This document shows positions 4,208 through 35,670 of a stretch of DNA of 47,226 nucleotides, piece after piece. The stretch is from Candidatus Thorarchaeota archaeon (lineage in GTDB: Archaea > Asgardarchaeota > Thorarchaeia > Thorarchaeales > Thorarchaeaceae): the NCBI GenBank assembly GCA_004524565.1, contig SDNZ01000001.1, positions 76,455 to 123,680 on the forward strand, in the 5' to 3' direction. The notes below the pieces were generated by a model that did not search any database, was not told the DNA's origin, and was given only the letters and a program-made list of their open reading frames with translations. The stretch's first letter is position 1. Each line of letters opens with the position of its first letter. The translations under genes were made by a program, and so were the position numbers.

Positions 4208-4352
4208 ATTCACAGTGTATTCATAAACACAGGTTCACAGAATTTTCGTGTGAATGGCGCCATAATTGTGAACACTTTCTACGAAACAGGCTTTTGCGTG
4301 CTTATTGAAGAACAATCGGCTTTGATATATCTTCTTATACTTGTGAATAGAC

Positions 4353-4376
4353 ACACCCCTTCGTTTCCATTGGAAC
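4353..4376 (-). other. ORB-like origin recognition box
   Basis: Read on the minus strand the site is 'TCCAATGGAAACGAAGGGGT' plus flanking bases. It has a TTCCA/TGGAA dyad, then AAACGAA, then a G-string. This matches the layout of archaeal origin recognition boxes bound by Orc1/Cdc6 (consensus recalled as TTCCAGTGGAAACGAAGGGGT). Related boxes lie at 8521-8543 and 8669-8690. No orc1/cdc6 gene is in the window. Confidence 0.55.
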
Positions 4377-4480
4377 TAAGTAATCGGACATATGAAACGT
4401 TTAAGGAATCATTCACAATGCATATAGAATAGTGAATGGTGAACAGAATGGAGAAATACCTTATTTTTAGAAATAGAGGT

Positions 4481-4656: not shown

Positions 4657-4681
4657 GATAGAACCCTCGAAGGTGAAAGAT

Positions 4682-5311
4682 ATGAACGATGGAGATCGAA
4701 CAAATTATGTCTATGAATTCACGTATAGTTCAGCTCCAGGACTTCGTGAGATCTTTCAATGCAAGTATGTTAGTCCAGTTGAGGCACTTAACAGGTTCAA
4801 AAAGATATTATCACTGACAGAGTCGCCTTTTGATTTTAAAATCCTAGTATCAGATGAAACAATGGGTGAAGAATCTAGTTTCCAAGTCAAGGGTGGCAGT
4901 ATCGAAGAAATGTTTGCCAAATTCAAAGTATTCCTCGAAACAAGTACTGGCTGTGTCTTTGTTGAAAGTGTCAGTGAAATTCCAGAAACGGGTTTCAATG
5001 AAACCAGATTAGAATCCATGAGTAACTATGATAAGATGCAGGTGATTATCTATGCATCTTTCAAACATGGAAAATTTTCTTCTCTTGATGTTGCTGAAAT
5101 TTACGAAGATACTTTCAGTGAAAATCTTCCTAAAAGCACAGCTTCAACTTATCTCGCACGAATGTGGGATAATAGTAAGGGACATCTTGAGCGGTATGGA
5201 AATAGATCAGGGTATACCTATCGCCTCAAAACTGAGGTGAAAGAAGTTTTAAGAGAAACAGAGAGAGCAGAAGAGCTCCTGGCAGCTATCCAGATGCGAG
5301 TTCGAGAATAG
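4682..5311 (+). CDS. Winged-helix domain protein, unknown function
   Basis: The track begins at GTG 4673, but ATG 4682 has 'aaggtga' at ribosome-binding distance and gives 209 residues. The N-terminal ~110 residues are an unassigned alpha/beta module ('YVYEFTYSSAPGLREIFQC'). Residues ~120-190 resemble a winged helix: 'QVIIYASFKHGKFSSLDVAE', a recognition-helix candidate 'LPKSTASTYLARM' and a wing-like 'ERYGNRSGYTYRL'. A charged helix closes the protein. It is probably a DNA-binding regulator. The inverted repeat and TGTGAAT sites directly upstream are natural candidate targets, but that is inference. Its 3' end converges with the saccharopine dehydrogenase gene. Confidence 0.7.
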   Translation: MNDGDRTNYVYEFTYSSAPGLREIFQCKYVSPVEALNRFKKILSLTESPFDFKILVSDETMGEESSFQVKGGSIEEMFAKFKVFLETSTGCVFVESVSEIPETGFNETRLESMSNYDKMQVIIYASFKHGKFSSLDVAEIYEDTFSENLPKSTASTYLARMWDNSKGHLERYGNRSGYTYRLKTEVKEVLRETERAEELLAAIQMRVRE

Positions 5312-6682: not shown

Positions 6683-7999
6683 CTAGTTCAGATATTGATT
6701 GAGATATTCAAAATTCTTTGTTAGTTTTCCGCGGTATACGATAATTGCATCTTTGATTTCCCTGGGTAAGTCTAAGTCTTCAAAAGATGCCTTGAAATCT
6801 GCCTTTGCAAGTGCAGGTATGAATTCAAGTAAGGTTTCACCGAATGATGTTGATGCTTCACGTGGAAGTTCACAGGGTAGATTATCAACAGCCATGATTA
6901 CGGGGCCATCTCCTTTTACACCAAGTTCGATTCGATCTTCCTTGATTAGGTAGACAAATGCAGGTTTAGCAGGTGTTGTACAGTCAAGTGTAAACTCGAT
7001 AGCACCACCAATATCACAAGATATGTCCCCTATTACACGCAATTTTCGAGATTTTTCTTTCCAGTGTTCACGGATGAAATCCTTTGTTATTAATCGAGGA
7101 TACTTATTCGTCCAATAGATACAGTTCATAATGATTGTAAGATACTGAACATAATTATGAAACACACCACGGTAATCTGCATTTCCTAATTTGTAATAGT
7201 CTTGTAATTCGAATTTCTTTGTTGACTCTCTGGGTTCTACCATATCTTCTTCTTTGAAGACACACTTGTATAGCAAGTTCCTCTTGGGTTCTAGATGTCG
7301 GAGATCTTCTGGTTGAACTGTTTCGTGAGGAAGCAAGTCAAAGATTAGTTGTGCTCCTCGAGATACGTTACCATATCCTGCAAATCCAACGACAAATGGC
7401 GTAAGCTCTTCAGGAAGTCCTTGTTCGTGGATTCGTTTTCCGAGTGACTTGAATTCTTCTTTCACAGCTTCTAAGCCCTTGAGTTCCAGAGTTGTCCGCA
7501 TACCAGCGAAAGGATTTGGTTTGATACCTTCCATTTCCAAACGTTCTCCAAGAACATGAAATGTATCTGAGATACCAGCCATTCCAGCCCAGTTGCCAAA
7601 GAAAATCATTCGCCGTCCCTTATCATCTACTACCCGTTCGTAGTCAATCAATGTAGATCCGGTATTCATAATATGCTGGAGCATAGGCATGTTGTATTTC
7701 TGGCCTTTGATTGTGTGGCTGAAGAAGATATAGGCTACGTCTTTTTCAAAGAAGTCGATTGGCATCTCTTTGATACCGAGAACTACTGGTACGCCACTTC
7801 CTTTAAGTGGAGTAGCTGTTGCGCCAACTTCTTCGAATTCTTTTTCTTCGAATGCACGCTGAGAACTCGGTTCGATAACAAATTCAATACCATGCTTTTC
7901 GACAAGAGATTTAACTTGATCAGGTATGAGTGCAACTCTTGTTTCAAACGCTTTTTCTTCCTTCCGCAAACCAATCCTATTCAACAAATTTTCCTCCAC
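6683..7999 (-). CDS. Lysine-ketoglutarate reductase / saccharopine dehydrogenase (lysine-forming), LYS1/LKR-like
   Basis: Couples lysine with 2-oxoglutarate to saccharopine, or the reverse. The N-terminus 'IGLRKEEKAFETRVALIP' is the alanine-dehydrogenase/transhydrogenase-type domain found in LKR and LYS1. Later blocks such as 'FGNWAGMAGISDTFHVLG', 'VGFAGYGNVSRGAQ' (nucleotide-binding glycines) and 'IGDISCDIGGAIEFT' fit the family. Length 438 aa. GTG start with 'ctaggacgtggagg' around it; the GGAGG overlaps the start, so translation could also begin slightly downstream. First gene of the LKR-SDH pair, transcribed away from the candidate origin. Confidence 0.9.
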   Translation of the reverse strand: MEENLLNRIGLRKEEKAFETRVALIPDQVKSLVEKHGIEFVIEPSSQRAFEEKEFEEVGATATPLKGSGVPVVLGIKEMPIDFFEKDVAYIFFSHTIKGQKYNMPMLQHIMNTGSTLIDYERVVDDKGRRMIFFGNWAGMAGISDTFHVLGERLEMEGIKPNPFAGMRTTLELKGLEAVKEEFKSLGKRIHEQGLPEELTPFVVGFAGYGNVSRGAQLIFDLLPHETVQPEDLRHLEPKRNLLYKCVFKEEDMVEPRESTKKFELQDYYKLGNADYRGVFHNYVQYLTIIMNCIYWTNKYPRLITKDFIREHWKEKSRKLRVIGDISCDIGGAIEFTLDCTTPAKPAFVYLIKEDRIELGVKGDGPVIMAVDNLPCELPREASTSFGETLLEFIPALAKADFKASFEDLDLPREIKDAIIVYRGKLTKNFEYLNQYLN

Positions 8000-8142: not shown

Positions 8143-8430
8143 ATGGCTTCGTATCTGTACCTTTATGATTGTAAGGAAGCTAGACGAAGTAATGCAAGGC
8201 GCGTGGCTTTTACCAAGGAGCTCTATGGGTATATTTACACTTGGAAAACGAAATCCGGAATCAAAGAAAAAAGAAAACCAGGTCTCTTAGACGAATGTGT
8301 GGGATCTGAAGCTGTCGCGGATTCAGCAATTCTAGTACCAGAAGAATCACGAGTATTATTCGATAGCTTATTCTCGACATATCGGGATATACTGAGTCTT
8401 AGGGTGTATGAAATTGTTCAGGAAACCTAG
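8143..8430 (+). CDS. Small conserved-looking hypothetical protein
   Basis: The track starts at 8116, but ATG 8143 ('MASYLYLYDCKEARRSN') excludes the palindrome from the gene and gives 95 residues. The protein is soluble and mixed alpha/beta, with basic patches ('ARRSNARRVAFTKELYGY', 'WKTKSGIKEKRKPGLL') and a regular C-terminal helix 'VLFDSLFSTYRDILSL'. I do not recognise the family and see no clear helix-turn-helix. It lies between two copies of the AGAACACGTGTTCT-type palindrome, so it is probably subject to, or part of, that regulation. Confidence 0.65.
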   Translation: MASYLYLYDCKEARRSNARRVAFTKELYGYIYTWKTKSGIKEKRKPGLLDECVGSEAVADSAILVPEESRVLFDSLFSTYRDILSLRVYEIVQET

Positions 8431-8454: not shown

Positions 8455-8466
8455 GAACACGTGTTC
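8455..8466. promoter_or_regulatory. Palindrome GAACACGTGTTC (copy 2)
   Basis: Perfect 12-bp palindrome 25 bases past the stop of the small hypothetical gene. Same core as the copies at 8699-8716 and 8753-8766. Confidence 0.55.
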
Positions 8467-8520: not shown

Positions 8521-8690
8521 ACACCCCTTCATTTCCACTGCAGAAATAAAAATGGAGTGATTTTAAGCGATCAATATAGAATAAATAAAAATGGAGATAA
8601 ATGCAAGCTGCAAAAACCCCTATTTATACTTACCGAAATCGAATCTAATAGATAGGTGATTGAATTTTTCTAGTGGAAATGGAGGGGTCT
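8521..8690. other. Candidate replication origin: inverted ORB-like boxes around A+T-rich DNA
   Basis: Left box, minus strand 8521-8543: 'CAGTGGAAATGAAGGGGTGT'. Right box, plus strand 8669-8690: 'TAGTGGAAATGGAGGGGTCT'. Both share TGGAAAyG(A/G)AGGGGT with the box at 4353-4376 and resemble Orc1/Cdc6 origin boxes. They are inverted, with G-strings pointing outward, and flank about 125 A+T-rich bases (for example 'ATCAATATAGAATAAATAAA') that could unwind. Two copies of 'AAATAAAAATGGAG' (8544 and 8583) lie inside. Genes on both sides are transcribed outward. No initiator gene is present in the window, so this remains a candidate. Confidence 0.5.
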
Positions 8691-8698
8691 TATAGGTC

Positions 8699-8716
8699 TT
8701 AGAACACGTGTTCTAA
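8699..8716. promoter_or_regulatory. Perfect 18-bp palindrome TTAGAACACGTGTTCTAA (copy 3)
   Basis: The longest and most perfect copy of the series. It lies about 130 bases upstream of the iorA start and directly beside the right ORB-like box, so it could act on iorAB transcription, on the origin, or both. The core CACGTG is the same in copies 2 to 4. Confidence 0.65.
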
Positions 8717-8752: not shown

Positions 8753-8766
8753 AGAACACGTGTTCT
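8753..8766. promoter_or_regulatory. Perfect 14-bp palindrome AGAACACGTGTTCT (copy 4)
   Basis: The copy nearest to iorA, 80 bases before its TTG start. It follows 'TTAATAAAGTATAGAT', which contains a possible weak TATA element, so it lies about where transcription would start. That position suits repression. Confidence 0.6.
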
Positions 8767-8846: not shown

Positions 8847-10739
8847 TTGGCTAAACCTCAAGAACTACTTGAAGACTCTCCAGGGAAGAAGGTACTATTA
8901 CTTGCAAATGAAGCTATTGCACGTGGAGTACTAGAAGCTGGAGTTAGGTTGGTTGCACTTTATCCTGGTACACCCAGTAGTGAGATTGGGAACAATCTTA
9001 CATTCATGGCACCAAAGATACCTAATTTTTACTTTGAATTTAGTACGAATGAAAAAGTTGCTCTCGAAGTAGCTGGAGCAGCGGCTGTTGCTGGAGTTAG
9101 ATCAATGATGGTCTGTAAAGGACCAGGTCTCAATGTGGCTGCAGATCCATTCTTCTCACTTGCATACGTTGGAGTACGAGCAGGCATGGTTATCGTTGTA
9201 GCTGATGATCCAAGTATGTGGAGTTCACAGAATGAAAACGATAGTCGGTACTATGCATTGATGGGTAATATGCCTTTGATGGAACCAAGCGATCCTATAG
9301 AAGCTAAATCAATGCTGCTTGAAGCATACGCATTCTCAGAACAATTTGAGCTACCAGTCCTCTTCCGAACTACAACCCGAGTCAATCATACTAGAGCACC
9401 AGTTGAATTCGGACCAATCTCTTCACGCCCTGATAAAATTGAGTTTGAAAAAGAACCATTCCGGTTTGTACCAATTCCAGCTGTGGCTAGAGTTAGGCAT
9501 CCGTGGTTACTTGGACAGATAGAGAAAGCTCGTGAGTTTTCAGAAACCAGCCTTTTGAACTTCACTGAGGGTGAAGGAGACCTAGGTATCATTACTAGCG
9601 GGGTATCGTATAATTATGTGAAAGAAGCTCTTTTGGAGATGAATATCTCTGCAGAAATTTTGAAACTTGGAATCACCCATCCTCTACCTGAGAAAAAAAT
9701 GATAGAGTTTCTGAAGCGTCACAAGAAAGTCGTTGTAGTTGAAGAACTTGAACCATTCCTTGAAACACATGCTCGCCGCCTAGCTCAGCTTGAAAAAATC
9801 ACGGTTGATATTCTTGGTAAAGAGCAAGGTTTCTTTTCTCGTGTTGGAGAATATAGTCCAAGGATTGTTATAGAAGCTCTATGTAAAATTAATACTTGTA
9901 ATACACCTATTAATTGGGCAGATATTGATGCGAGATCAAAAACGGAACTTGATTTACCACCAAGACCCCCATTATTATGTGCAGGCTGTCCGCATCGTGC
10001 ATCTTACTATGCTATTCGGACAGCAACACGAGGGAAAGCAATCTATCCAACAGACATTGGATGCTATACTCTAAGTATTGCACCACCTCTAGAAACCGCA
10101 GACATTCTCTTTGATATGGGATCATCAATCACAACAGCATGTGGACTTGCTGAGGTTACTGATCAGGATATTGTTGCATCAATTGGTGACAGTACCTTTT
10201 TTGCATCAGGTCTTCCAGGTATAGTAAACGCAGTATACAATCAACATAGAATATGTTTGGTGGTCCTGGATAATAGAACCACAGCAATGACTGGCCATCA
10301 ACCGCATCCTGGAACAGGAATTACTGGAATGAGAAAAGAGGTTCCACCACTGGACATCGAAGAGGTTTGCAAAGGTCTCGGAGTTGAGTATGTGAAGACC
10401 ATCAACCCATTCGATTCTATTGCAGGTCTAGTTGGTGAAGTAAGAGAGATGGTAAAATGGGCAAGGGAGAATCATAAGCCTGCAGTCCTGATTAGTAAAG
10501 AACCCTGTGCATTGCTAAAAGCAGCAGATCGTCGTCGTGCAGGCGAAACGCCACCCAAATATTACGTTGATGCGGAAGAATGTACTGCATGCAAACGCTG
10601 TCTTAACCGGTTATCCTGTCCAGCAATGTATATGGATCCTGAAACGGAGAAAGCTGTGATAGATGAAACTCAGTGTAATCTATGTGGGACGTGTGTTGCA
10701 GTATGTCCACAAGGAGCAATAAAGAGGGAGGCGGAATAA
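8847..10739 (+). CDS. iorA: Indolepyruvate:ferredoxin oxidoreductase, alpha subunit
   Basis: Oxidatively decarboxylates aryl-2-keto acids from tryptophan, tyrosine and phenylalanine to aryl-acetyl-CoA with reduction of ferredoxin. The thiamine-diphosphate site is clear: 'IGDSTFFASGLPG' to 'LDNRTTAMTGHQPHPGTG' (about residues 447-490). The N-terminal part has the pyrimidine-type domain ('LYPGTPSSEIGN'). The C-terminus carries two [4Fe-4S] motifs, CxxCxxCx4CP (a slightly longer first cluster) and CNLCGTCVAVCP. Length 630 aa is normal. The start is TTG with 'GGAGGAT' upstream; the nearby GTG runs into a stop. iorB begins immediately after the stop. Confidence 0.96.
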   Translation: MAKPQELLEDSPGKKVLLLANEAIARGVLEAGVRLVALYPGTPSSEIGNNLTFMAPKIPNFYFEFSTNEKVALEVAGAAAVAGVRSMMVCKGPGLNVAADPFFSLAYVGVRAGMVIVVADDPSMWSSQNENDSRYYALMGNMPLMEPSDPIEAKSMLLEAYAFSEQFELPVLFRTTTRVNHTRAPVEFGPISSRPDKIEFEKEPFRFVPIPAVARVRHPWLLGQIEKAREFSETSLLNFTEGEGDLGIITSGVSYNYVKEALLEMNISAEILKLGITHPLPEKKMIEFLKRHKKVVVVEELEPFLETHARRLAQLEKITVDILGKEQGFFSRVGEYSPRIVIEALCKINTCNTPINWADIDARSKTELDLPPRPPLLCAGCPHRASYYAIRTATRGKAIYPTDIGCYTLSIAPPLETADILFDMGSSITTACGLAEVTDQDIVASIGDSTFFASGLPGIVNAVYNQHRICLVVLDNRTTAMTGHQPHPGTGITGMRKEVPPLDIEEVCKGLGVEYVKTINPFDSIAGLVGEVREMVKWARENHKPAVLISKEPCALLKAADRRRAGETPPKYYVDAEECTACKRCLNRLSCPAMYMDPETEKAVIDETQCNLCGTCVAVCPQGAIKREAE

Positions 10740-18522: not shown

Positions 18523-19503
18523 TTATTGAACCTCCCTGAGTATTGTTGCATATGCTTGAGAAACAAGCGATGCAATCTCTTTATCCACTGTGGGGTCTCC
18601 GTTCTTCCTAAAATTCTCAGCAGCCACTTGTTGGCAACCTCGTGCTAACATTCTGATGTCGCGAGGATTACCTCTTGCTGCTGTATTGATTACATTGATT
18701 GATTCATCGCTGAATGGGTATACGTTAAATGAATCTGTATCAAAGCTATCAATTCTTCCCTGAGCATAAGCAATTCTTCGTCCTATGAATTCCTTTGCTT
18801 TTGCATTGTTGAGAGCTGGTACATCAAGAGGTTCTGTACGATCTGCAATCTGTGGTAGGAACGATAACATAGCGTTCCAATATATCATGGTTCCAGACAT
18901 GACCAAAGTGACAATTGGTTCATCTAGAGATTGTGCTTTACCATATGTTTCTACCATCTCTTCAGTTGGCAAGTCTGCAAGAAAACGTAATTTATGAAAT
19001 GCTGCTTCTTGATTATCTGCCACATCCTCAATGAAGAGCGCTGTGCGACTTTTCTCCTCAATATATCTCCGAAGACTCTCTTTTGCTACGGCATCGATGA
19101 TTTGGCTGGACTCCCAGGATCTTTTGTATTTCACTCTCAACGAATCAGCAATAGCTGCAGCCATCTGCTTCTCGTAGAGACCTGTCATCCCTACATATCC
19201 AGTGACAAATTTGTTTCCTTTTCTATCTGCTAATGTTGGCAAGTCTCTCAGTGCCAAAAGCATCAGTGTACTCTTCCCCGATCCCACAGGACCGCGAATG
19301 AAGACATGTCTCTCATTTGTGATAATTAAATCAACAATGGAATCTAAGAAGTCACTATCTTCAATATACAACCGACTGTCTGGCATTTTGAAACCACGAA
19401 ATGGCGAAAATCTGGCACCAATCCTTTCTTCCCATGCTCGAAGGACTTCCTTTCGAGTGTTGAAGTGACGAATCAATGCACTCTCGTGGATAGCAATTGT
19501 CAT
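18523..19503 (-). CDS. AAA ATPase
   Basis: 326 residues with Walker A 'GPVGSGKST' (about residue 71), a Walker B-like 'ALFIEDVAD', and a C-terminal 'AARGNPRDIRMLARG' resembling the sensor-2/lid segment of Orc/Cdc6-type or MoxR/TniB-type AAA proteins. The N-terminal ~50 residues are family-specific ('FSPFRGFKMPDSRLYIEDSD'). No winged-helix domain follows, so it is not a full Orc1/Cdc6. It forms a two-gene leftward operon with the ribbon-helix-helix-like protein. The actual process served (segregation, repair, transposition control) cannot be told from the sequence. Confidence 0.8.
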   Translation of the reverse strand: MTIAIHESALIRHFNTRKEVLRAWEERIGARFSPFRGFKMPDSRLYIEDSDFLDSIVDLIITNERHVFIRGPVGSGKSTLMLLALRDLPTLADRKGNKFVTGYVGMTGLYEKQMAAAIADSLRVKYKRSWESSQIIDAVAKESLRRYIEEKSRTALFIEDVADNQEAAFHKLRFLADLPTEEMVETYGKAQSLDEPIVTLVMSGTMIYWNAMLSFLPQIADRTEPLDVPALNNAKAKEFIGRRIAYAQGRIDSFDTDSFNVYPFSDESINVINTAARGNPRDIRMLARGCQQVAAENFRKNGDPTVDKEIASLVSQAYATILREVQ

Positions 19504-34650: not shown

Positions 34651-35670
34651 TTGCAATCAGATTATTCGAACTTCATGGAATCCATTGTTGATCTATTTAG
34701 ACCTATAGCTCAGTTCTTCCAAAGTCTTGGGCTTCCATTTGGTGAAATAGCATGGATCTTTATCTTCACAATTACACCACTACTGTTGATAATTATCCTA
34801 CTGGTAGTTCGTGGTCGACGCAGAGGTGGAGTTGATTTAGATGAAGGTGTTAAGAAGATAATTGCTTCAACTGGTGACGTTTCAACCGGTATGGCTGGTG
34901 TCAAGAAAGTCAAGTACATCAGAACACCTGCAGAAGCCTTGGTCTTTCTCAAGATTGAAGAAAATGCAATCCAACAAGCATTAGCTGCTGTAGACTATTA
35001 TGCACAGCAGGGTGAAATGGATGAATCACTGAAGACTAAATTCATTCAGACCTATCAAGACCGTTTGGATGCAGTTCGCAGTGCAATTGCTAAAGATGAA
35101 GAATTCAAAGAGATTGTCGACACCTCTTCCGCGGTAGACCGCGCTCGTTCTGATTATCTTCAGAAACTTGCAGCAATGTCAGGAACCGCCGTAGAAACTG
35201 ATGATGATGACAAAGCTGGCCCATCAAGTGTAGGAATGCCAGATGCAACCACTACAACTGCTCCAAGTGGAGGAGTCCCAAGTGGTGGTCCTCCCGGTGG
35301 TGGCGCACCCAGTGGTGGTCCTCCAGGCGGCGGTGCACCTAGCGGTGGTCCTCCCGGTGGTGGCGCACCCAGTGGTGGTCCTCCAGGCGGCGGTGCACCT
35401 AGCGGTGGTCCTCCAGGCGGCGGTGCACCTAGCGGTGGTCCTCCCGGTGGTGGAGCACCTAGTGGCGGAAGTCTTCCCGGTGGCGGCCCTCCAGGCGGTG
35501 GTGCACCCAGCGGTGGTCCTCCCGGTGGTGGAGCCCCAGGTGGCGGAAGTCCTCCCGGTGGTGGAGCACCTGGTGGTGAGGCACCAAAAACAACTGGTGG
35601 CAAAAGTTCACTCCAGTCCGAGATGCTTCAAGAGATGGAACGTCTTAAGGCGCTCATGGGTGGAGATTAG
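34651..35670 (+). CDS. Single-pass membrane protein with Gly/Pro-rich repeat tail
   Basis: 339 residues from TTG behind 'AGGTGAAA'. A membrane helix (residues ~30-52, 'FIFTITPLLLIIILLVV') is followed by 'RGRRRGG', a helical domain (~60-180, 'PAEALVFLKIEENAIQQALA') and ~100 residues of 'SGGPPGGGAP' decapeptide repeats, ending in an amphipathic helix 'LQSEMLQEMERLKALMGGD'. The positive-inside rule puts the helical domain and repeats in the cytosol. The repeat tail should be disordered. No known family; a scaffold or condensate-forming role is possible but speculative. Confidence 0.75.
   Translation: MQSDYSNFMESIVDLFRPIAQFFQSLGLPFGEIAWIFIFTITPLLLIIILLVVRGRRRGGVDLDEGVKKIIASTGDVSTGMAGVKKVKYIRTPAEALVFLKIEENAIQQALAAVDYYAQQGEMDESLKTKFIQTYQDRLDAVRSAIAKDEEFKEIVDTSSAVDRARSDYLQKLAAMSGTAVETDDDDKAGPSSVGMPDATTTTAPSGGVPSGGPPGGGAPSGGPPGGGAPSGGPPGGGAPSGGPPGGGAPSGGPPGGGAPSGGPPGGGAPSGGSLPGGGPPGGGAPSGGPPGGGAPGGGSPPGGGAPGGEAPKTTGGKSSLQSEMLQEMERLKALMGGD
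35281..35580 (+). repeat. In-frame 30-bp tandem repeat coding for SGGPPGGGAP
   Basis: Six near-identical 30-bp units followed by variant units. 35281-35340 and 35341-35400 differ at only one base, showing recent duplication of a two-unit block. GC-rich compared with the surroundings. Protein-coding, not a CRISPR array. Confidence 0.85.

Follow-up and report, generated by a model that had tools for sequence, protein, structure and literature searches.

A probable ORB-type chromosomal replication origin in a Thorarchaeal Asgard archaeon, with its initiator gene unlinked

Introduction

It is established for Sulfolobus and Aeropyrum that Orc1-1 binds ORBs, distorts the DNA and helps to melt it, and loads MCM (PMC4010727). 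Sulfolobus oriC3 has no ORBs, and WhiP replaces Orc1 there. WhiP has been described as a distant homologue of Cdt1, in a review that also regards archaea as being without a clear Cdt1 homologue and describes archaeal origins as typically linked to their own initiator gene (PMC5333045). In the oriC1-type origins of Pyrococcus, Sulfolobus (oriC1) and haloarchaea (oriC1), inverted ORBs with a TGGAAA core and a G-string lie around an A+T-rich segment, and the origin adjoins orc1/cdc6 (PMC4010727, PMC4164010). Adjacency is typical but not required, as several of the origins mapped in Halobacterium lie away from cdc6 (PMC4010727). In Methanomassiliicoccales, paired and often inverted ORBs flank orc1/cdc6.1 (PMC4153887). 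The sole proposal of an Asgard origin that we found in the open-access literature is skew-based; it was made for the closed chromosome of Candidatus Odinarchaeum LCB_4 and chosen from a local skew minimum (PMC9246712). No ORB-based or mapped Asgard origin was found in the open-access full texts searched.

Here we analyse a 47,226-nt stretch of DNA, hereafter the window, from a Candidatus Thorarchaeota archaeon. It covers positions 76455-123680 of contig C27 (124 kb) in a 3.13 Mb draft genome of 218 contigs (G000). Feature coordinates are those of the window unless the contig is named. The candidate origin in this window shares with oriC1-type origins the inverted TGGAAA/G-string ORBs around an A+T-rich segment, and its genome encodes an ortholog of the structurally characterised, ORB-binding Orc1-1. 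Its ORBs are also nearly identical in sequence to those of Methanomassiliicoccales. Unlike these systems, its initiator gene lies 64 kb away; it also differs from oriC1-type origins in its neighbouring genes and in a third ORB ~4.2 kb off, at the promoter of a gene for a winged-helix protein (WH212). The linkage of such a gene to the origin recalls Sulfolobus oriC3 and WhiP.

Results

A sequence-only reading of this DNA had pointed to boxes sharing TGGAAAyGrAGGGGT, two of them inverted and a third to their left. We located all three as exact matches to TGGAAAYGRAGGGGT, at 4355-4369 (- strand), 8523-8537 (-) and 8674-8688 (+). As a reference we used the common archaeal ORB of Ori-Finder 2, TCCA[CG]T[TG]GAAA[TC][GA]AAGGGGT (PMC4164010). 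The left arm of the inverted pair (8523-8543, - strand, core 8523-8537; the 21-mer CTGCAGTGGAAATGAAGGGGT), which is conserved in the family, differs from this reference at one position, as does the third, distal ORB (4355-4375, - strand; TTCCAATGGAAACGAAGGGGT); the right arm (8668-8688, + strand, core 8674-8688; TTCTAGTGGAAATGGAGGGGT) differs at two. The G-string was seen in all three boxes, so the resemblance to Orc1/Cdc6 boxes that had been claimed for both the TGGAAA core and the G-string holds. No further match to the common ORB was found in the 47 kb window, even with four mismatches allowed. The three exact boxes all lie inside 4.3 kb, against an expectation, by simple arithmetic, of ~0.02 exact matches per genome. 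A scan for more ORBs had been suggested as a check; at one mismatch or fewer to TGGAAAYGRAGGGGT, the 3.13 Mb draft genome has only the three window boxes, all at this site.

The boxes at 8523 and 8674 form an inverted repeat in which the TGGAAA cores point inward, toward one another, and the G-strings outward. The segment between them (8538-8673) is 70.6% A+T, compared with 59.3% in the window as a whole. Ranked by low duplex stability, the weakest 60-bp stretch of this segment is among the top 0.05% of the 124 kb contig. The pair therefore flanks an A+T-rich segment, as had been read from the sequence, and this easily unwound segment is a probable duplex unwinding element. The same segment contains a TATA-like CTATTTATACTTA that is conserved in an alignment of the genus and is probably the iorA promoter. 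Two flanking genes, an LKR-like gene (6683-7999, -) and iorA (8847-10739, +), point away from the pair. The earlier claim of outward-facing genes on either side is correct for these two, but not for the conserved small gene o104 (8143-8430, +), which lies between the LKR-like gene and the left box and points inward. Both o104 and the winged-helix gene just downstream of the third box had been overlooked.

Other short elements accompany the boxes. A GAACACGTGTTC palindrome conserved in the genus lies to the left of the pair (8455-8466), and two more lie to the right (8702-8713 and 8754-8765); these are three of only seven exact copies in the genome. One of the two GAACACGTGTTC copies in a Jordarchaeal-type genome (G021) lies ~0.5 kb from its ORB pair. 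Around the third ORB, alignment of 21 family members identified conserved TTCACA / TGTGAAT elements (4209-4440), one of which is TGTGAATGGCGCC at 4249-4261. These may be sites for WH212 or for another origin or regulatory factor. The pattern TTCACA(N13)GTGAAT was rejected as an origin-specific dyad, since it also occurs elsewhere in the genome.

We compared relatives to assess the conservation of this arrangement within the Thorarchaeal family. A first search recovered exact boxes from 12 of 18 further genomes of the family, and from none of the 10 genomes belonging to other families. When the 21-mer was allowed up to three mismatches, boxes turned up in the majority of family genomes and also in several families besides; the reversed control pattern of the 21-mer gave 0-1 matches per genome. 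In every family member whose stretch was retrieved, the boxes occupied the syntenic place; pair and third box together keep this position in more than 20 members. The pair is spaced by 140-150 bp in 25 family members (20-mer start to start), and the third box lies ~4.1-4.4 kb from it in most, or 5.6 kb in G004; the exception is G029, where the segment is rearranged. The family alignment showed that box cores and G-strings are retained while the surrounding DNA diverges, and the pair, its spacing and the third box are conserved over more than ten Thorarchaeal genera. Almost all family relatives with this locus bear the title Candidatus Thorarchaeota; one is titled Lokiarchaeota and two just archaeon. 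The contig titled Candidatus Lokiarchaeota (L192) has a Thorarchaeal-type locus and gene order, suggesting that its title is probably wrong. A second copy of the third box in G007 (L037, contig C11), on a 4.9 kb contig, perhaps represents strain variation or contamination.

The search for orc1/cdc6 outside the window, another check that had been suggested, found two genes on the same contig: orc1-1 (C27:19473-20588; 410 bits to TIGR02928), 64 kb from the pair, and orc1-2 (C27:41693-42784; 299 bits to the Orc1/Cdc6 model), 42 kb from it. No ORB at two or fewer mismatches was found near either gene. Orc1-1 is closest to the ORB-bound structures 2v1u of A. pernix (E 2.5e-98) and 2qby_A of S. solfataricus (E 5e-97); an initiator matching the boxes is thus encoded in the genome. 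Its C-terminal winged helix is near-invariant between Asgard families, and therefore the same box specificity is expected. The orc1-1 promoter (C27:19370-19473, and in relatives) carries TTCCASTGGAA dyads without the G-string, at 0-1 mismatch in 9/11 genomes, which are probably autoregulatory or miniORB-like.

We then looked at how the boxes are placed in other Asgard families, where an initiator gene does adjoin them. Homologues of WH212 and o104, found by tblastn, adjoin the ORB pair and orc1-1 there. The gene order in Odinarchaeia is o104, ORB pair, WH, orc1-1, and in Jordarchaeia it is HypF, o182, AAA326, ORB pair, o104, ORB, WH, orc1-1; HypF, o182 and AAA326 also neighbour the Thorarchaeal pair. 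In further families the ORB pair and WH occur with orc1-1 and one more ORB, and the order varies. An outward ORB pair lies within a few kb of orc1-1 in these other families, and most of those examined have an ORB beside the WH gene or upstream of it. LKR, SDH and iorA were undetected at the orc1-1-linked ORB loci of other families, indicating that the boxes travel with origin genes and not with metabolic genes. AAA326 (18523-19503), an AAA ATPase that fits no clear family, is found close to the ORB pair at Odinarchaeal and Jordarchaeal loci too, and may be a further origin-linked gene. It was rejected as an initiator, having only weak AAA matches and being missed by the Orc1/Cdc6 model.

Outward-facing ORB pairs 140-420 bp apart around an A+T-rich segment were found in families f1, f3, f4, f6, f9, f11, f12 and f17. 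Outward pairs occur in f5 and f16 as well (10028-/10209+ in L050 and 6408-/6592+ in L202), although automatic pair choice took an inward pair in both, and in one of two f12 genomes. The A+T excess between paired ORBs is kept in all families examined, and the random ORB rate at three or fewer mismatches is 0.016 per 10 kb. There was no clear ORB pair at L204 or at the f13 loci L213-L216; the outward-pair architecture is widespread among Asgard families, though perhaps not universal.

The distance between the WH gene and the initiator gene sets the Thorarchaeal lineage apart. Where one contig carries both the WH gene and the best orc1, the two are separated by 0.15-5.3 kb (median 0.75 kb) in all 33 non-Thorarchaeal genomes, by 54-152 kb in 11 Thorarchaeal genomes, and by 1.03 Mb in G050. 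The WH gene would thus have stayed at the origin even where orc1-1 has left, as in Thorarchaeia. Because the pair and the WH and o104 homologues sit beside orc1-1 elsewhere, the Thorarchaeal site is orthologous to a canonical archaeal oriC. This synteny of WH212 and o104 with the ORB pair and orc1-1 is the decisive evidence for reading the site as an origin.

WH212 (4673-5311, +) encodes the winged-helix protein at the third ORB, and its profile matches 79 of the 148 genomes sampled from the phylum. A Pfam scan of 21 members assigned it to no Pfam family, and the Cdt1 model was not among the matches listed. The predicted structure has a mean pLDDT of 77.5, with the wing domain at about 90. Its best fold match in the PDB is the Cdt1 C-terminal domain 3a4c (E 3.5e-3, TM 0.48 by target), and yeast Cdt1 and the Cdt1 chains of OCCM complexes were also among the fold matches; PadR, MarR and BlaI winged helices score almost equal to 3a4c. 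In 12 Asgard genomes searched with the Cdt1 C-terminal domain family PF16679, the WH gene went unmatched at E<=10; together with the Pfam scan, this rules out an identification as Cdt1 by sequence. Kinship with Cdt1, as suggested by the predicted model, may be taken as a non-specific lead only. Identity with the MCM C-terminal wing was also rejected: a single member matched PF21100 (E 3.7e-4) without reaching the curated cut-off, and in G000 the strongest match lies at another place. WH212 might be an ancestral Asgard licensing factor, a relative or functional equivalent of Cdt1 (or WhiP) that loads MCM with Orc1-1 at the origin, but we consider this unlikely.

The second origin-linked gene, o104, encodes a small protein; Thorarchaeal, Odinarchaeal and Jordarchaeal genomes have it next to the ORB pair. 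It had no sequence match in Pfam or the PDB, and was therefore rejected as a member of a known family. Structure prediction gave it, at high confidence (pLDDT 93.7), a ferredoxin-like fold; the fold matches are weak, with Cas2-like proteins among them. Elsewhere in the window, the ORF at 34651-35670 has a long array of GGGAPSGGPPG-type repeats in its C-terminal half.

Strand composition was assessed as GC, AT, purine and keto skew in a 62% sample of G050 (2.58 Mb), the only single-contig relative examined. Block shuffling gave P about 0.02 for the range of its cumulative GC skew, a weak signal dominated by gene orientation. Of the two coarse GC-skew extremes, the minimum (about 0.66-0.68 Mb) falls closer to orc1-1 (0.78 Mb) and the maximum (1.66 Mb) closer to the ORB pair (1.81 Mb). 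After correction for gene strand, this sample showed no consistent skew switch at the ORB pair or at orc1-1. On contig C27, cumulative GC skew reaches its local minimum at 19,288, a short way upstream of orc1-1.

Discussion

We conclude that this interval is very probably the oriC at which a Thorarchaeal Asgard archaeon begins to replicate its chromosome, and that it is the ortholog of the oriC in other Asgard archaea. The observed motif, its genome-wide uniqueness, the geometry and low duplex stability of the pair, its conservation in the family, and its orthology by synteny with orc1-1-linked ORB pairs all support the candidate replication origin that the sequence-only reading had put forward. 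With high, though not complete, confidence we regard the site as an ORB-type origin of unusual arrangement, in which the initiator gene is unlinked and a distal ORB accompanies a winged-helix gene; it is classed as a variant because the initiator gene is not adjacent. Three observations count against an oriC. The initiator gene is 64 kb off here and 1.03 Mb off in G050, unlike most mapped archaeal origins; the weak GC skew of G050 has no consistent switch at the site once gene strand is corrected for; and the segment between the boxes also carries the likely iorA promoter.

We infer from known ORB-type origins how such a site would be bound, melted, loaded with MCM and fired. Orc1-1, encoded 64 kb away on the same contig, would bind the two outward-facing ORBs, with its winged helix on the TGGAAA side and its AAA+ domain on the G-string side. 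Bound Orc1-1 would distort, and help to melt, the A+T-rich segment between them, and would then recruit MCM, with two forks leaving in opposite directions. The third ORB, 4.2 kb away at the WH promoter, would be a second Orc1-1 site; it may be part of a compound origin, act as a titration site, or couple WH expression to the level of Orc1-1. WH212 and o104 may also have roles at the origin.

The same boxes could be Orc1-type operators for iorAB, the LKR/SDH operon, o104 and the WH gene, with replication starting elsewhere. The conserved TATA-like element between the boxes, the position of the third ORB, which most families have at the WH promoter, and the resemblance of the GAACACGTGTTC palindromes around the pair to regulator sites all fit such a role, and haloarchaeal Orc1-2 is a known transcription regulator that is not an initiator (PMC9738581). 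However, Odinarchaeal, Jordarchaeal and other Asgard families have the outward pair next to orc1-1 without LKR/SDH or iorA, and the boxes are missing from all other promoters of the genome. Moreover, about a dozen families have two boxes 140-420 bp apart with an A+T-rich segment between them, which is the geometry of an origin and not of an operator. Operators in place of an origin are thus decidedly improbable. Mere chance similarity, with boxes unrelated to replication that were picked for their ORB-like look, has nothing in its favour beyond the first selection by eye; their uniqueness in the genome, their conserved position throughout the family and their orthology with orc1-1-linked ORB pairs have refuted it already, and we give it practically no weight.

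It is quite unlikely, too, that the functional Thorarchaeial origin moved with orc1-1 to the promoter of that gene, leaving the window pair as a relic or as an accessory or dormant origin. The G-string-less TTCCASTGGAA dyads at the orc1-1 promoter do recall miniORBs, but they fit autoregulation of orc1-1 equally well, and full ORBs with a G-string are missing there. The local cumulative GC-skew minimum at 19,288 would also suit a moved origin, yet skew at the scale of this contig follows gene orientation and is not significant after correction. A relic would be expected to decay, whereas pair, spacing and third box have been kept in more than ten Thorarchaeal genera. We therefore favour an origin that stayed in place at the ORB pair.

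Together, motif, geometry and gene neighbourhood locate a probable oriC in about a dozen Asgard families, and from these positions origin use can be checked with existing metagenome coverage and the few Asgard cultures. The Thorarchaeal lineage would offer a case in which origin and initiator gene have been separated and the origin has stayed intact. Asgard archaea are relatives of the ancestors of eukaryotes. In these archaea, the closest to eukaryotes, two uncharacterised origin-linked proteins can now be named, of which one is the winged-helix protein encoded at an ORB.

These positions can also be set against the skew-based proposal for Odinarchaeum. In a closed Odinarchaeal-type genome of 1.418 Mb (G020), the ORB pair and orc1-1 lie at 622.6-625.5 kb (C1:622652-625481, L048), that is, at ~623 kb. 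If this genome is the LCB_4 record, rotated so as to begin at the skew-based origin (PMC9246712), then the skew and ORB predictions disagree.
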